This document shows, piece after piece, positions 3,750 to 19,501 of a stretch of DNA of 32,259 bases; within the stretch, counting starts at the first letter, position 1, and every line of letters begins with the position of its first letter. A program made the position numbers and the translations under genes. The stretch spans positions 1-32,259 of the forward strand of contig ONQO01000028.1 in assembly GCA_900319995.1 (NCBI GenBank), given 5' to 3'. The DNA is from an uncultured Bacteroidales bacterium. Lineage in GTDB: Bacteria > Bacteroidota > Bacteroidia > Bacteroidales > Paludibacteraceae. Below the pieces are notes generated by a model. The model had not been told where the DNA came from and did not search any database. It saw only the letters and a list, made by a program, of their open reading frames with translations.

Positions 3750-3823
3750 TGATCCGGTCGGGATTCGAACCCGAGACCCACAGCTTAGAAGGCTGTTGCT
3801 CTATCCAGCTGAGCTACCGGACC
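3750..3823 (-). tRNA. tRNA-Arg (anticodon TCT)
   Basis: The complement folds as a 74-base cloverleaf. The acceptor stem GGTCCGG pairs with CCGGATC (one G-U), with A as discriminator base. The D-arm is GCTCAGCTGGATAGAGC. The anticodon loop carries TCT, which reads AGA arginine codons. The T-arm contains GGTTCGAATCC. CCA is not encoded; the sequence after the discriminator is CAAAC. Its promoter lies about 165 bases upstream at 3986-4017. Confidence 0.95.
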
Positions 3824-14710: not shown

Positions 14711-14718
14711 TACCTTTG
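14711..14718 (+). promoter_or_regulatory. -7 element for the gldD transcription unit
   Basis: TACCTTTG follows an eight-T run and CAAC, nearly identical to the element at 1724-1731. The -33 element is weak (TTTC, 14688-14691). It lies back-to-back with the manC promoter, about 115 bases away. Confidence 0.6.
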
Positions 14719-14736
14719 TGCCCAAATTGGATTAGT

Positions 14737-15309
14737 ATGCGTAAATTGTTAAGTTATATCTCTGTTTGTGCACTCTTTATGTGTTCGTGCGGGAACAAGA
14801 CTTCTTTGCCTAAACCGTACGGCTATTACCGCATCTCTGTGCCGGATACTGCCTATACACCATTTGATGCACAATTTCCACAATTTCCTTATTCCTTTGA
14901 CTTGTCGCAAAACGCTGTGGTTCAAATACGTAAAGATGAACCTTTTTGGATAAATATATGGTATCCCCCCTTGGATGCAACGATTCATTGCTCATACAAA
15001 CCGATTCATCGCAATCTGCGTGAATTGACTAACGATGCCTTAGAGTTTGTCTATCGGAATGCTTCGTTTGCCAGTTCCATACCCGAGCGCGAATACAATC
15101 ATCCGGAAGCGCAAGTTTATGGAGTTCTTTTTGATTTGGAGGGAAACACGGCTTCATCTTGCCAGTTCTTTGTGACTGATTCTGTCCGTCATTTCTTCCG
15201 AGCTTCGGTATATTGTAACTGCCAGCCGAATGCCGACTCGCTGGCGCCTGTTTATAACTACTTGCGTACAGACGTTAAAAGAATGGTTGAATCTTTTGTG
15301 TGGAAATAA
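14737..15309 (+). CDS. gldD: Gliding motility lipoprotein GldD
   Basis: A 190-residue lipoprotein. The signal peptide ends in a lipobox-like FMCSCG near residues 14-19, giving an acylated cysteine for membrane anchoring. The mature start LPKPYGYYRISVPDTAY matches GldD's conserved P-K-P-x-G-Y-x-R-I motif. PYSFDLSQ and FWINIWYPPLDATIHCSYK are further family blocks. GldD is required for gliding in Flavobacterium and is associated with the type IX secretion apparatus; non-gliding Bacteroidales keep it too. ATG 14737 is chosen because the lipoprotein signal begins there. It ends one base before the fusion gene, so it is the first gene of a rightward operon. Confidence 0.9.
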   Translation: MRKLLSYISVCALFMCSCGNKTSLPKPYGYYRISVPDTAYTPFDAQFPQFPYSFDLSQNAVVQIRKDEPFWINIWYPPLDATIHCSYKPIHRNLRELTNDALEFVYRNASFASSIPEREYNHPEAQVYGVLFDLEGNTASSCQFFVTDSVRHFFRASVYCNCQPNADSLAPVYNYLRTDVKRMVESFVWK

Positions 15310-15310
15310 T

Positions 15311-16456
15311 ATGTCTTTTTCTTTTAAAAATAGAAGTTTGGCTTTATTGCTTGACCCGGAAAAAGCGAATCCGGACGCACTGCCTATTTCTGCGGATTGT
15401 TGTCCCGACTACATTTTTGTGGGTGGTTCCACCGGCGGCGATACCACGGAGTTTGTGCGTACATTGAAAATCAAACTCTCGACTCTCAATGGTCAATTGC
15501 CAATTATTTTATTTCCAGGGAATGCAGAGCAGTTTACACCTGAAGCCGATGCTGTCTTGTATCTTTCTTTACTGTCTGGGAATAATCCGGAATATATTAT
15601 AGGTCAACAGATTAAGTCGGCAAGAGCTATTCACGGCTCGTCTGTTGAGTGTATCCCAACGGCGTATGTGCTAATAGATGGAGGCGTTGAGACGTCCACT
15701 ATGCGAGTAACAGGTTCTAAACCTCTTGACCCTTCAAATCTTCAAACAATTATCGATACTTGTATTGCCGCTGAACTGATGGGTAAAAAAGCCATCTATC
15801 TGGAAGCCGGTTCCGGAGCCATCAATCCCGTTTCATCAGACATAATAAAAGCCGTAAAAGAGCACATCTCTGTCACGCTTATTGTAGGAGGAGGCATTCG
15901 TACTCCCGAGGCGATGAAAGCAGCATATGATGCCGGAGCGGATGTGGTAGTTATCGGAAACCACTTTGAAACGCATCCCGAAGAGTTGAAGAAATTTGTT
16001 TGTACTCACGAAATCAATTCGTTACAAGAAGACGAAAAGTATATGTCTCTTGCTCTTGAAGAAGCCCGTAAAGCGTTGGTTGCCAATGAAATTCCTATCG
16101 GTTGTGTCATCGTTTCACAGCATCAGATTATCGGTAGAGGATACAATCTGTCAGAGGCGCTTTCCGATGTGACAGCGCACGCTGAAATACAGGCTATAAC
16201 TGCGGCATCTCAGACCATTGGGGGAAAATACCTTCCCGACGCGACACTTTATGTAACCATCGAACCCTGCCCTATGTGCGCCGGAGCTATCGGTTGGGCA
16301 CAAATAAGCAGGATTGTTTATGGAGCGTCGGATCCTAAACGCGGTTATACTATATATGCTCCCCGTGCTTTCCATCCGAAAGCAAAAGTTACTTCCGGAG
16401 TCCTTGAATGCGAATGCCGTGAACTCATGCAGGAGTTCTTCCGGCCAAAAAGATAA
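15311..16456 (+). CDS. Fusion of geranylgeranylglyceryl phosphate synthase-like domain with TadA tRNA adenosine deaminase
   Basis: A single 381-residue frame carries two complete enzymes. Residues 1 to about 235 are a PcrB/GGGP-synthase TIM barrel: LALLLDPEK (10-18), FVGGSTGGDTTEF, IYLEAGSGA and LIVGGGIRTPEAM are the phosphate- and prenyl-binding motifs. This family joins a polyprenyl diphosphate to glycerol-1-phosphate. From about residue 239, EDEKYMSLALEEARKAL begins a full TadA domain with the zinc/catalytic site AHAEIQA and PCPMCAGAI. TadA converts A34 to inosine in tRNA-Arg(ACG). The junction (KKFVCTHEINSLQEDEK, about 228-243) has no stop or frame change, and each half has its usual length. 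ATG 16043 (M245) lies just inside the TadA part and could be an internal start, but would cut the first helix. The gene begins one base after gldD. I know of no standard pairing of these enzymes. Confidence 0.9.
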   Translation: MSFSFKNRSLALLLDPEKANPDALPISADCCPDYIFVGGSTGGDTTEFVRTLKIKLSTLNGQLPIILFPGNAEQFTPEADAVLYLSLLSGNNPEYIIGQQIKSARAIHGSSVECIPTAYVLIDGGVETSTMRVTGSKPLDPSNLQTIIDTCIAAELMGKKAIYLEAGSGAINPVSSDIIKAVKEHISVTLIVGGGIRTPEAMKAAYDAGADVVVIGNHFETHPEELKKFVCTHEINSLQEDEKYMSLALEEARKALVANEIPIGCVIVSQHQIIGRGYNLSEALSDVTAHAEIQAITAASQTIGGKYLPDATLYVTIEPCPMCAGAIGWAQISRIVYGASDPKRGYTIYAPRAFHPKAKVTSGVLECECRELMQEFFRPKR

Positions 16457-16479: not shown

Positions 16480-18378
16480 ATGATAAACGACAAAATGATA
16501 AATAGTAAAGTTGTTAACACAGTACTACGTCTTGGGGTTTTTCTCCTGCTCGCAGCAGTTATTGTACTTATCTTCCCACGCTACAGCAATACATTCCGTT
16601 ATCATTATGAAATAGGCAAACCATGGGGGTACGCGACCCTTACGGCTCCTTTTGATTTCCCGATTTTCAAAACGGACGAACAGGTAGCCAAAGACCAGCA
16701 GCAGCTCCTTTCTACTTTTGCTCCATGCTATGATTATATCCGAGGTGCGCAGCGCGAAGTGCTTGTTGTTTCTCTGCAGGAGATGGAATGGCTTCGAACC
16801 GAGCAGATTTCACGTATATCGGTAATACAGGGAAGGACTTCGAAGATATATCCCATCTCTTCTGTCTATACTCCGATGACAGCGCGAAGAGAAAAAGGAT
16901 ATGATTGTGCTCAAAACCTTGTCCGAGATACTGCCCTTACCTCCACCATGCGCCAGAAACTGCTTTCTGCGCTTAATTATACGCAAGATATGGTTCAGAA
17001 AGAGGAACGTATCATTGAGCAAGGAGAGATAGTTACTGATTATTCCTATCAGGTCCTCCAGTCTCTATCGCGTGCTTATAGCGACAAATCTATCGGAGCC
17101 AAACAAAGGGTATGGACGCTCGTTGGTGAGTCAATCCTTGTCCTTCTTTTCCTTTGTCTATTTATAATTTATCTGTTTGTCTTCCGCCCGTCTTATATCC
17201 ATAAGACATCAAGAGTGCTCTTTTTCTGTCTTCAGATATTTATAGTTATCGCCCTTGCTTGTCTTGCGTTGCGATTCAATCTCTCTGTGTATATCATTCC
17301 TTTTGCTTGGGTACCCATCTTGACGCGCGTATTTCTTGATTCCCGGACTGCCCTCTATCTCCATTTTACCACGATTCTTATCGCCTCTGTCATAGTTCCT
17401 GCGCCTGTTGAGTTTTTCTTTGTACAGGTGGTAGTGGGAATGGTAGCGGTATCTTCGTTGTCAGACATGACGAGAAGGGCACAACTCGTTCAAACGGCAG
17501 GATGGATTCTTCTTGCCCAGACAATTGCTTATACGGCAATCTCTTTCGCGCAGACTGGAGACATCAACTCCATAAACTGGAGAATGTACCTCTATTTCGG
17601 CATCTGCGCCATACTCACAATAGGTTGTTACGGCTTGATTTATACGTTCGAAAAAGTATTCCACTTCATTTCGTCTATCACCTTGGTCGAACTGACGGAC
17701 ATTAACTCCGATCTTCTTCATACGCTCGCGGAAAAAGCCCCCGGGACATTCCAACATTCCATGCAGGTTTCTAATCTAGCTACGGAGGCAGCCAAGGAGA
17801 TAGGAGCGAATGCCCTGCTTGTCAGAACAGGAGCACTATATCACGATATAGGCAAAATAGTGAATCCTCTCTATTTTATTGAGAACCAGCACGGAGCAGA
17901 TAATCCTCTCTTGTCAATGAAACCGATGGAGGCTGTGCAGGTGATTATCTCTCATGTTACAGAAGGCGAAAAGATTGCCCGTCAGCACCGGCTTCCTGAG
18001 GCGATTGTCAATTTTATCACAACTCATCACGGGACCTCGCTTGTGAGATATTTCTATAATACCTGGTGTAACGCACATCCCGGGGAGCAGGTAGATGAGA
18101 CACTTTTCCGTTATCCGGGCACCAAACCCACCACTAAAGAAGGAGCTATCCTCATGATGGCGGATGCTATTGAAGCGCGTTCACGAAGCCTTGATGATTT
18201 CTCGGAAGAATCCATTGCAAAAGCTGTTAATCAGATGATTGATAGTCAGATAGCCGATGGTCAGTTTGCAGAGACACCTCTTTCGTTCAAAGATGTAGAA
18301 GACATCCGACGAGTCTTCACAGCCCGACTGACAGCCATGAACCATCACCGCATTTCATACCCGACTCTGAACAAATAG
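16480..18378 (+). CDS. pgpH: PgpH-type 7TM-HD cyclic-di-AMP phosphodiesterase
   Basis: A 632-residue membrane protein that would hydrolyse the second messenger c-di-AMP. Residues 15-32 form a first membrane helix. An extracytoplasmic region of about 180 residues follows (7TMR-HDED type). Several hydrophobic helices lie between about 208 and 400 (ILVLLFLCLFIIYLFVF, IFIVIALACLALRF and others). The cytoplasmic HD domain has GTFQHSMQVSNLA and the metal site GALYHDIGKI (H455-D456), then FITTHHGT and ILMMADAIEARSRSL. Start uncertain: ATG 16480 or ATG 16495. It sits 23 bases after the fusion gene and 43 bases before dus with no promoter between, so it belongs to the gldD operon. The cyclase partner is not in the window. 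Confidence 0.9.
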   Translation: MINDKMINSKVVNTVLRLGVFLLLAAVIVLIFPRYSNTFRYHYEIGKPWGYATLTAPFDFPIFKTDEQVAKDQQQLLSTFAPCYDYIRGAQREVLVVSLQEMEWLRTEQISRISVIQGRTSKIYPISSVYTPMTARREKGYDCAQNLVRDTALTSTMRQKLLSALNYTQDMVQKEERIIEQGEIVTDYSYQVLQSLSRAYSDKSIGAKQRVWTLVGESILVLLFLCLFIIYLFVFRPSYIHKTSRVLFFCLQIFIVIALACLALRFNLSVYIIPFAWVPILTRVFLDSRTALYLHFTTILIASVIVPAPVEFFFVQVVVGMVAVSSLSDMTRRAQLVQTAGWILLAQTIAYTAISFAQTGDINSINWRMYLYFGICAILTIGCYGLIYTFEKVFHFISSITLVELTDINSDLLHTLAEKAPGTFQHSMQVSNLATEAAKEIGANALLVRTGALYHDIGKIVNPLYFIENQHGADNPLLSMKPMEAVQVIISHVTEGEKIARQHRLPEAIVNFITTHHGTSLVRYFYNTWCNAHPGEQVDETLFRYPGTKPTTKEGAILMMADAIEARSRSLDDFSEESIAKAVNQMIDSQIADGQFAETPLSFKDVEDIRRVFTARLTAMNHHRISYPTLNK

Positions 18379-18421: not shown

Positions 18422-19501
18422 ATGGCAAATGACAGAATGACAAATAAGTTATATTTGGCTCCCATGGAGGATGTCACCGATCCGGCCTTCCGGATGCTTT
18501 GCAAGCGCTATGGAGCCGATCGGGTCTATACGGAGTTTGTCAATGCCGACGCGCTTGTCCGAGACATTGCATCCACTACGCGCAAACTGACTATTCATGA
18601 CGAAGAAAGGCCGGTAGCCATTCAGATTTATGGCCGTGAACCCGAAGCCATGGCGGATGCCGCGCGGATTGTAGAAACCGCCCACCCCGATTTTATAGAC
18701 ATTAATTTCGGCTGCCCAGTAAAGAAAGTGGCGGGAAAAGGAGCAGGAGCTGGGCTTCTTCGGGATGTCCCCAAAATGCTTGAAATAGCCCGTTCAGTAG
18801 TCAATGCCGTACATACTCCTGTAACTGCCAAGACGCGTCTCGGGTGGGATGAGAAAGACCTCATTCCCCGTGTCAATCCTCTTGGCCTTTCCACTTCTTC
18901 TGCTTTGGGATGTGACAATGCGGAACTCTTCATCGTCGAGTTGGCACTCGCCCTTCAAGATTGCGGAATTCAAGAGCTTGCTATTCATGGCCGCACACGT
19001 TCACAAATGTACCGCGGAGAAGCGGATTGGACGCTTATAGGTGAAGTTAAGAATAATCCGCGCGTGCATATACCTATTATAGGGAACGGGGATGTGTGTA
19101 CGCCCGAGCGCGCTCGTGCGTGTTTTGACCGCTATGGAGTAGATGCCATAATGATAGGTCGTGCCACCTTTGGCGCTCCGTGGTTATTCGCAGAAATGCG
19201 CAATGCACTATGCCCAAACTCTCCAAACAATCCTGATTTTCCAGTCTCCATGGCAGACAAGGTCGCAGTTCTCAAAGAACATGTCTTGTCTTCAATTGCA
19301 TGGTGTGGCGGAGACGAGCGCAAAGGAATTCTCCATTCAAGGCGTCATTTTGCATCTTCCCCTGTATTCAAAGGTCTCGCAGACTTCAAACAAACCCGCA
19401 TAGCACTCCTTCGTGCGGAAACAAAGGAAGAGGTGTTCCGAATAATGGATTACATCGTAGAAAATTGGTCTGTAGATACATATAATGAGGTGAAGGAATA
19501 A
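18422..19501 (+). CDS. dus: tRNA-dihydrouridine synthase (Dus family)
   Basis: A 359-residue FMN enzyme that reduces uridines in tRNA D-loops. YLAPMEDVTDPAFR near residue 11 is the FMN-binding entry, and INFGCPVKKVAGKGAGAGLL (94-113) holds the catalytic cysteine C98. AIHGRTRSQMYRGEADW and GNGDVCTPERA complete the barrel; the C-terminal helical domain follows. The sequence is closest to DusB-like Bacteroidota proteins. Between LGWDEKD and IVELALALQD there are about 20 extra residues (NPLGLSTSSALGCDNAE) compared with relatives as I remember them, probably a surface loop. ATG 18437 is an alternative start. BASS transporter follows after 13 bases. Confidence 0.93.
   Translation: MANDRMTNKLYLAPMEDVTDPAFRMLCKRYGADRVYTEFVNADALVRDIASTTRKLTIHDEERPVAIQIYGREPEAMADAARIVETAHPDFIDINFGCPVKKVAGKGAGAGLLRDVPKMLEIARSVVNAVHTPVTAKTRLGWDEKDLIPRVNPLGLSTSSALGCDNAELFIVELALALQDCGIQELAIHGRTRSQMYRGEADWTLIGEVKNNPRVHIPIIGNGDVCTPERARACFDRYGVDAIMIGRATFGAPWLFAEMRNALCPNSPNNPDFPVSMADKVAVLKEHVLSSIAWCGGDERKGILHSRRHFASSPVFKGLADFKQTRIALLRAETKEEVFRIMDYIVENWSVDTYNEVKE

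Follow-up and report, generated by a model that had tools for sequence, protein, structure and literature searches.

An in-frame fusion of GGGP synthase and TadA homologues in one genus of Paludibacteraceae, joined by a linker often made of dispersed genomic repeats in relatives

The stretch of DNA analysed here (hereafter the window; the 32,259 nucleotides of contig ONQO01000028.1, assembly GCA_900319995.1, from an uncultured Bacteroidales bacterium) carries one gene whose product combines a homologue of GGGP synthase (GGGPS), an archaeal-type lipid enzyme, with a homologue of the tRNA deaminase TadA. Within the genomes searched this fusion is confined to one genus. Its unexpected part is the linker: in relatives of the window's organism, repeats dispersed over the genome often supply its sequence. 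The reading that we hold with good confidence is that of a two-enzyme fusion which arose by the joining of operon neighbours and whose product would consist of independent domains on a disordered tether, with TadA as the retained and GGGPS as the accessory half, and with a linker that is tolerated.

The fused frame comprises 381 codons and a stop codon, with no internal stop (Table 1), and the computed mass of its product is 41.0 kDa. Both domains are complete by Pfam and meet at about residues 229–239. The preliminary description of this DNA, which had proposed one in-frame fusion of a GGGPS-like enzyme and TadA with the catalytic motifs retained in both halves, is borne out by these data and by the presence of the checked residues in all 74 fused proteins of the genus (see below). 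The frame extends in the 5′ direction without a stop to an ATG at position 15230, within gldD; the ATG at 15311, one base past the gldD stop codon, is the likelier true start of the gene. The fusion is described here at the level of gene sequences, the named genomes being metagenome-assembled or uncultured.

Table 1. Position of the fused gene, of its domains and motifs, and of the neighbouring genes in the window.
Feature	Position	Strand	Evidence
gldD, gliding motility lipoprotein, directly upstream	14716..15309	+	TIGR03512 above cut-off
Fused GGGPS-TadA gene	15311..16456	+	Translation; Pfam and NCBIfam families; same stop-free frame in 74 genomes of the genus
GGGPS/PcrB TIM-barrel domain, residues 12-226	15344..15988	+	PF01884; Foldseek 4jej; Y119, Y163, E165
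Interdomain linker, residues 230-238 (9 aa)	15998..16024	+	No in-frame ATG/GTG/TTG; no 16-mer shared within this genome
TadA domain, residues 240-381	16028..16453	+	PF00383/PF14437; PDB 7cph; Foldseek
TadA H290-A291-E292	16178..16186	+	H290 and E292 in 74/74 fused proteins
TadA C320-x-x-C323	16268..16279	+	Both Cys in 74/74 fused proteins
7TM-HD (HDIG) protein, next downstream	16480..18378	+	PF07698/PF01966
DusB-like tRNA dihydrouridine synthase, further downstream	18422..19501	+	TIGR00737, 293.0 bits for a cut-off of 293.3 (just under)

The first half matches the Pfam PcrB family at residues 12–226 (E = 5e-36; PF01884, 124.7 bits for a threshold of 23.9). It passes the cut-off of the GGGP synthase model TIGR01769 (168.4 bits; cut-off 161.55) and lies under the one of the subfamily model NF003198 (223.9 of 247). 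The closest solved GGGPS by sequence is 4jej of Flavobacterium johnsoniae (E = 2e-48), which Foldseek also matches to the predicted fold of this half (TMt 0.83). Residues Y119, Y163 and E165 are found in 74/74 fused proteins; from our reading of the motifs they would be the counterparts of Y134, Y178 and E180, the conserved residues named for MtGGGPS in PMC9385802. That source also states that Thr replaces Asn in loop βα8 of group II GGGPS. In the last phosphate loop the window protein has N217 (IGNHFE) where 4jej has Thr (IGTAFE). As N217 is shared by at least 97% of the unfused relatives, it is a lineage trait rather than a fusion trait. The window GGGPS is filed here as nearest to 4jej, and not as a typical group II member: it resembles this representative of the Bacteroidota group IIb in sequence, fold and Tyr/Tyr/Glu residues but adds a C-terminal TadA and differs in the loop residue just described. 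Bacteroidetes GGGPS homologues use G1P in vitro, according to PMC7852524, and the GGGPS half is predicted to act on G1P like these other homologues. Matches to PF13685 (G1P dehydrogenase) were found in 13 of 14 genomes, eight of them over the cut-off, although several resemble AdhE or other relatives by open-frame length.

The second half is covered by the deaminase domains PF00383 and PF14437 (residues 239–338 and 240–380; E = 1.5e-29 and 6.7e-32, respectively). Its best solved relatives by sequence are the TadA proteins of Bacillus (7cph, E = 4e-32) and Streptococcus (E = 5e-32), its predicted fold is matched by Foldseek with a TMt of 0.85, and the AlphaFold model of the whole window protein recovers the GGGPS and TadA families by fold. 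The TadA model NF008113 gives an E value of 1.7e-33 but a score under its cut-off (115.7 of 150 bits). A stand-alone TadA from an unfused relative has a similarly low score (114.9; another fused protein reaches 129.5), so that the shortfall is not due to the fusion and is a property of the lineage. This half is named TadA from homology and motifs, its score being below the curated threshold. The HAE...PCxxC zinc-deaminase site is present, with H290, E292, C320 and C323 in 74/74 fused proteins; from their roles in the family we take H290 to be a zinc ligand and E292 the catalytic glutamate, C320 and C323 presumably being zinc ligands as well. This site and a C-terminal FF helix are shared with the TadA of B. 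subtilis (7cph) and S. aureus (2b3j), from which the window TadA differs in being the C-terminal domain of another enzyme.

No second tadA was found in the window's genome, which is 87.7% complete and whose other deaminase-like matches are only RibD and a ComEB-like one, the latter under the cut-off of its model. The question of another copy had been raised by the preliminary description on the ground that TadA is normally essential, a premise that does not hold universally: B. subtilis is viable without TadA, as reported in PMC10454642. All 36 tRNA matches of the window's genome could be typed. They include the TadA substrate tRNA-Arg(ACG) (at L266), and the only other CGN tRNA found in this 87.7% complete genome is CCG. 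Because these two are the sole CGN readers found, inosine-34 should matter in the window's organism, and the TadA half is predicted from its family, its catalytic residues and the tRNA set to form inosine-34 on tRNA-Arg(ACG). A tRNA-Arg(TCT) gene is located in the window itself (3750–3823, strand −). Genomes usually have one TadA match; two were found in G315 (fused) and G238 (not fused). The second TadA of G315 stands alone at L215 (G315:C21) beside the fusion, and is perhaps on a foreign contig since this genome is 76% complete with 4% contamination.

Search of 178 genomes of the genus led to the classification of 160 (10 of the remaining 18 had no TadA match and no locus was retrieved for the other 8). 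The two halves are fused in 74 genomes, encoded by adjacent ORFs in 62 and by ORFs lying apart in 5, with GGGPS alone in the retrieved stretch in 10 and TadA alone in 9, loci of the last two classes possibly including contig ends. The preliminary description had recommended looking for the same single-frame architecture in relatives and regarded a stop codon or frameshift at the junction in all of them as the outcome that would disprove the fusion; the junction is open in the 74 genomes. G238, tallied under GGGPS alone, has in addition a truncated GGGPS next to TadA on another contig (L218). G205, whose halves are in differing frames, and G201, whose GGGPS is in two frames, were tallied as adjacent, while G209 and G248, which have a frameshift within GGGPS, were tallied as fused on their best stretch. 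The 68 good-quality genomes (completeness of 90% or more, contamination of 5% or less) distribute into 27 fused, 25 adjacent, 7 with TadA without GGGPS, 4 whose stretch holds only GGGPS, 4 apart and 1 unclassified. All 36 named relatives are Bacteroidales or Paludibacteraceae, and the loci of 36/36 match both halves; the titles that state a source mention rumen, reticulum, omasum, abomasum and colon, cattle, goat, yak and sheep, and red deer. Among the matches listed for 165 family members that belong to other genera none spans both halves; the list is ranked by E value, so that any spanning match would come first. An order-wide search (393 genomes, of which 390 lie outside the genus and some also belong to the family set) found spanning matches in the window's genome and in one other of its genus, and none outside the genus. 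A phage origin was considered and rejected: none of 35 phage-collection records covers 80% of the query, and the best 20 of the 35 match the TadA side only.

Unfused members of the genus have the gene order gldD-GGGPS-tadA-HDIG with ends that often overlap. The gldD gene lies upstream in 74/74 fused and 61/62 adjacent loci, and the HD-domain gene downstream in 73/74 and 59/62, respectively. A possible TadA-frame ATG is found 5′ of the GGGPS stop codon in 40 of the 62 adjacent loci, 17 of which have an ATGA overlap, and in nine of the 62 the GGGPS and TadA genes are already in one frame. This conserved order, often with overlapping genes, identifies the fusion as one of operon neighbours, in agreement with the origin from former neighbour genes that had been proposed beforehand. 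Fusion of adjacent operon genes forms a general class in which neighbouring, often overlapping genes become one ORF. The present case differs from it in that GGGPS and TadA share no known pathway and that several events probably occurred within one genus. A quick tree computed on both halves (142 rows, 366 columns) groups 69 of the fused genomes in one clade, G165, G331, G326/G270 and G251 being found elsewhere. The fused label changes five times on this tree (three changes being forced by well-supported branches) versus a mean of 47.5 times for shuffled labels; the change count alone cannot tell gain from fission, and the branch of G251 is long. One main fusion followed by a few later, separate ones would be the simplest reading.

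The two halves are not retained alike. Among the fused proteins, the number of positions without variation across the rows with a letter is 50 in GGGPS and 47 in TadA, and dN/dS in 12 near pairs of our choice ranges from 0.08 to 0.30 for GGGPS and from 0.01 to 0.17 for TadA. Both halves are under purifying selection, which is stricter on TadA. Comparison with unfused relatives revealed no nearly invariant GGGPS residue that had shifted in the fused proteins; TadA positions 303, 308 and 354 differ between the fused and unfused proteins. TadA is present in 68/68 good-quality genomes and GGGPS in 60/68. The TadA of G171 and G298 falls inside the fused clade (SH-aLRT of 98 for the set) and no GGGPS match was found in these genomes, the tadA of G171 starting at the very end of gldD. 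The same gldD-tadA arrangement, with GGGPS absent, characterizes a separate group composed of G191, G150, G284 and G070, with G177. Since GGGPS is absent in both cases and TadA kept, the lipid half is the removable, dispensable one, and two species of the fused clade have lost it. GGGPS is absent between gldD and tadA at loci L018, L023, L026, L145, L208, L209 and L211, and the tadA start codon overlaps the final gldD codons in several of the GGGPS-less loci. Frameshifts within GGGPS or between the halves were noted at L127 (G209), L129 (G248), L144 (G205) and L142 (G201); they may reflect decay or assembly error.

The linker of the 74 fused proteins has 8 to 36 residues (median 16; 24–108 nt) and no conserved sequence, and inspection by eye detected no shared motif. 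Unrelated linkers are found between near relatives (G310 and G341, dN ~0.05; G304 and G293, dN 0.03–0.05), and elsewhere the linker is retained between near relatives (G233 and G282, for example). An in-frame ATG is absent from 64/74 linkers. ATG, GTG or TTG occurs in frame in 29/74, where TadA may be separately started, and none of the three in 45/74, including the one of the window. Many linkers are visibly repetitive. Their 16-mers are shared with other sites in 33/74 cases, versus 5/74 for reversed linkers and a mean of 1.55/74 for codon-shuffled ones, when linkers are masked and the motif-fetched loci, the G205 locus and ortholog loci are left out; a count that left out only the motif-fetched loci gave 35, 5 and 1.4, respectively. 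The 41/74 linkers that have no 16-mer shared elsewhere include the one of the window, in which no repeat was found on scanning. Within the fetched stretches linker 11-mers recur 5.3 times per 10 kb in their own genome versus 1.9 in others, and 42/74 linkers have no 11-mer recurrence within their own stretch. Pattern searches of 24 genus genomes revealed two of the repeats to be spread genome-wide. TACAGCGNAGCGGTC was detected in 17 of the 24, with a maximum of 24 copies in G208 and none in the window's genome; AAATGGTAAATGAYCAAATG was detected in 18, with a maximum of 17 copies in G297 and six in the window's genome. The reversed controls of both gave 0 in each of the 24 genomes. Tandem copies of the class A repeat are spaced by 16 nt. 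When the 16-nt unit is arrayed in tandem, all three sense frames are free of stop codons and every antisense frame has one; in the sense direction the array can therefore be read in any phase. Small repeats (aaatggtaaatgacc, atcgtcaata and catcgaccatgcatgggcgat) also make up the intergenic operon spacers at L079, L063 and L080, varying by species.

Repeats of this type are also found inside other proteins. In the stretches fetched around the motifs, 45 of 54 motif copies (26/32 plus 19/22) fall within ORFs of 90 aa or longer, which is no enrichment because ORFs take up roughly 90% of the sequence there; the ORFs were defined mechanically, several copies falling at first codons, maybe 5′ of the true start, and a few ORFs being doubtful. 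Alignment showed that UvrA of G208 has extra residues relative to solved UvrA, being the longest of eleven genus sequences at the first site, and that the repeat of the NfnA-like reductase of G341 is inserted between the 4Fe-4S and FAD domains, a site which has other, often repeat-like, fillings in nine relatives. The repeat sites are hypervariable in both of these proteins, which were the ones compared across species. In GGGPS, a loop at about residues 54–63 has the same kind of repeat in G134, G290, G193, G215 and G324 (the loop pattern is readable in 52 of 74 rows). The window's genome has stretches of the NDQMVNDQMVN type in an S9 peptidase (L226) and in a large protein (L224). Other in-frame repeats were observed in housekeeping genes of relatives (L229–L231, L238–L242, L286, L287, L289–L291, L294); the repeat-bearing genes code for UvrA, the NfnA-like protein, a U32 peptidase, a beta-CASP protein, a glycosyltransferase, a CAAX protease-like protein and others, and in our reading RecF- and LpxB-like proteins carry such repeats too. 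One ORF of G208 (L236:677–2656), which holds two dispersed-repeat copies, combines EPSP synthase (AroA) with the rear portion of a family-2 glycosyltransferase; it is either an odd second fusion or an assembly chimera.

We lean slightly towards the view that several short repeat families spread in frame through the coding DNA of this gut Bacteroidales clade and survive where housekeeping proteins have flexible linkers or surface loops; such repeats could also bridge stop codons and create new fusions. If this is true, linker composition and length would be rewritten from species to species. The closest parallel considered is the one of the Rickettsia palindromic elements (RPEs), described in PMC10969869 as in-frame repeats of ~150 bp within unrelated housekeeping genes. 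Both are short, dispersed and inserted in frame in unrelated protein genes. However, the repeats described here belong to Bacteroidales, have units much shorter than ~150 bp (16-nt spacing), fall into several unrelated classes, and sit in linkers and loops as well as at the junction between two fused genes. Because they are shorter and of several unrelated kinds, we consider that they work like RPEs without classing them as RPEs.

Predicted models of the window and G290 fusions have two confident domains and a linker that is partly below a pLDDT of 50. Their pTM values (0.61 and 0.62, read without inter-domain error) give no sign of fixed packing. In the G290 model two repeat-made stretches have block-mean pLDDT values of 43–57, most domain blocks being at 90 or above. 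A helix is predicted at residues 232–257, with the conserved M245 inside it.

The following course of events is proposed. In the ancestor, GGGPS and tadA would have lain end to end between gldD and the HD-domain gene, and loss of the GGGPS stop codon, or a small indel bringing the two into one frame, would have created one polypeptide. To judge from the tree there would have been one main event, in the ancestor from which a clade of ~70 sampled species descends, and probably a few later repetitions. The ~41 kDa polypeptide would be composed of two independently folding enzymes on a flexible tether, most likely with no metabolic connection: a barrel that, given its family and catalytic residues, would make prenylglyceryl phosphate, and a TadA, the half held by selection, that would make inosine-34 on tRNA-Arg(ACG). 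The linker would behave like an intergenic spacer bound to the frame and be repeatedly rewritten by short repeats, which in these genomes would also insert into the loops and linkers of other proteins. The fusion puts covalent coupling in place of the tight gene coupling of the relatives and probably has little other function.

TadA is a dimer. GGGPS enzymes occur as dimers or hexamers (PMC9385802), so TadA would be displayed on an oligomer, and a mixed GGGPS-TadA oligomer is possible. Such a display is one reason to ask if the fusion was selected for a benefit of tethering, for example recruitment of TadA to the membrane via GGGPS, a fixed ratio of the two enzymes or stabilisation of one by the oligomer of the other. 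The main event has been kept in ~70 sampled species, perhaps for an unseen benefit, several probable independent events took place in the same genus, and 64 of the 74 linkers offer no in-frame ATG for a separate TadA. We nevertheless find selection for tethering rather unlikely, considering that neither length (8–36 aa) nor sequence of the linker is conserved, that the two models show no sign of fixed domain packing, that G171 and G298 kept TadA without GGGPS, and that no fusion was found in other genera among the genomes searched. With an unconserved linker, no sign of fixed packing and loss of GGGPS where TadA stays, the shared location envisaged in the preliminary description is not supported, nor is any functional link. 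The absence of GGGPS from G171 and G298 fits a GGGPS that is degenerating, with the fusion as a passive step in its loss; so do the 8 of 68 good-quality genomes that have no GGGPS match but do have TadA, the frameshifts in GGGPS of G209 and G248 and the differing frames of G205. We regard degeneration as unlikely in view of the dN/dS values of GGGPS (0.08–0.30 over 12 pairs), its 50 invariant positions and the presence of Y119, Y163 and E165 in 74/74 fused proteins.

Two separate enzymes could also be produced from the fused gene, by post-translational cleavage or by an internal TadA start in the linker. A disordered and variable linker would be easy to cut, and 29 of 74 linkers have an in-frame ATG, GTG or TTG. 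However, no common motif is visible by eye in the 74 linkers, 45 of them, with the one of the window, lack these start codons, and initiation at M245 would strip the front of the predicted helix at residues 232–257, which makes separate products quite improbable. An artefact might come to mind because the named genomes come from metagenome assembly or from uncultured isolates; its probability is negligible, the fusion being found in 74 genomes with identity down to 47% and different linkers, all in frame. A sequencing or assembly error at 15990–16045 is excluded for the same reason. The reading of a two-enzyme fusion of operon neighbours with a tolerated linker is the one we retain.

A literature search returned, among the matches listed (titles and abstract starts), no paper on a GGGPS-TadA fusion and none on in-frame repeats in Bacteroidales, a weak result as subscription papers and preprints were sparse. 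Fused genes of this kind are easily mislabelled as a lipid enzyme or as a deaminase in genome annotation. With its separate, adjacent, overlapping, fused and secondarily trimmed states, this single genus provides a replicated natural experiment on enzyme fusion, and the series shows TadA to be the partner that selection keeps and GGGPS the one that it releases. Owing to the repeats, a protein that is probably important has a linker which changes fast yet is bound to stay in frame; they also suggest that DNA spreads into proteins in an RPE-like manner outside Rickettsia as well.
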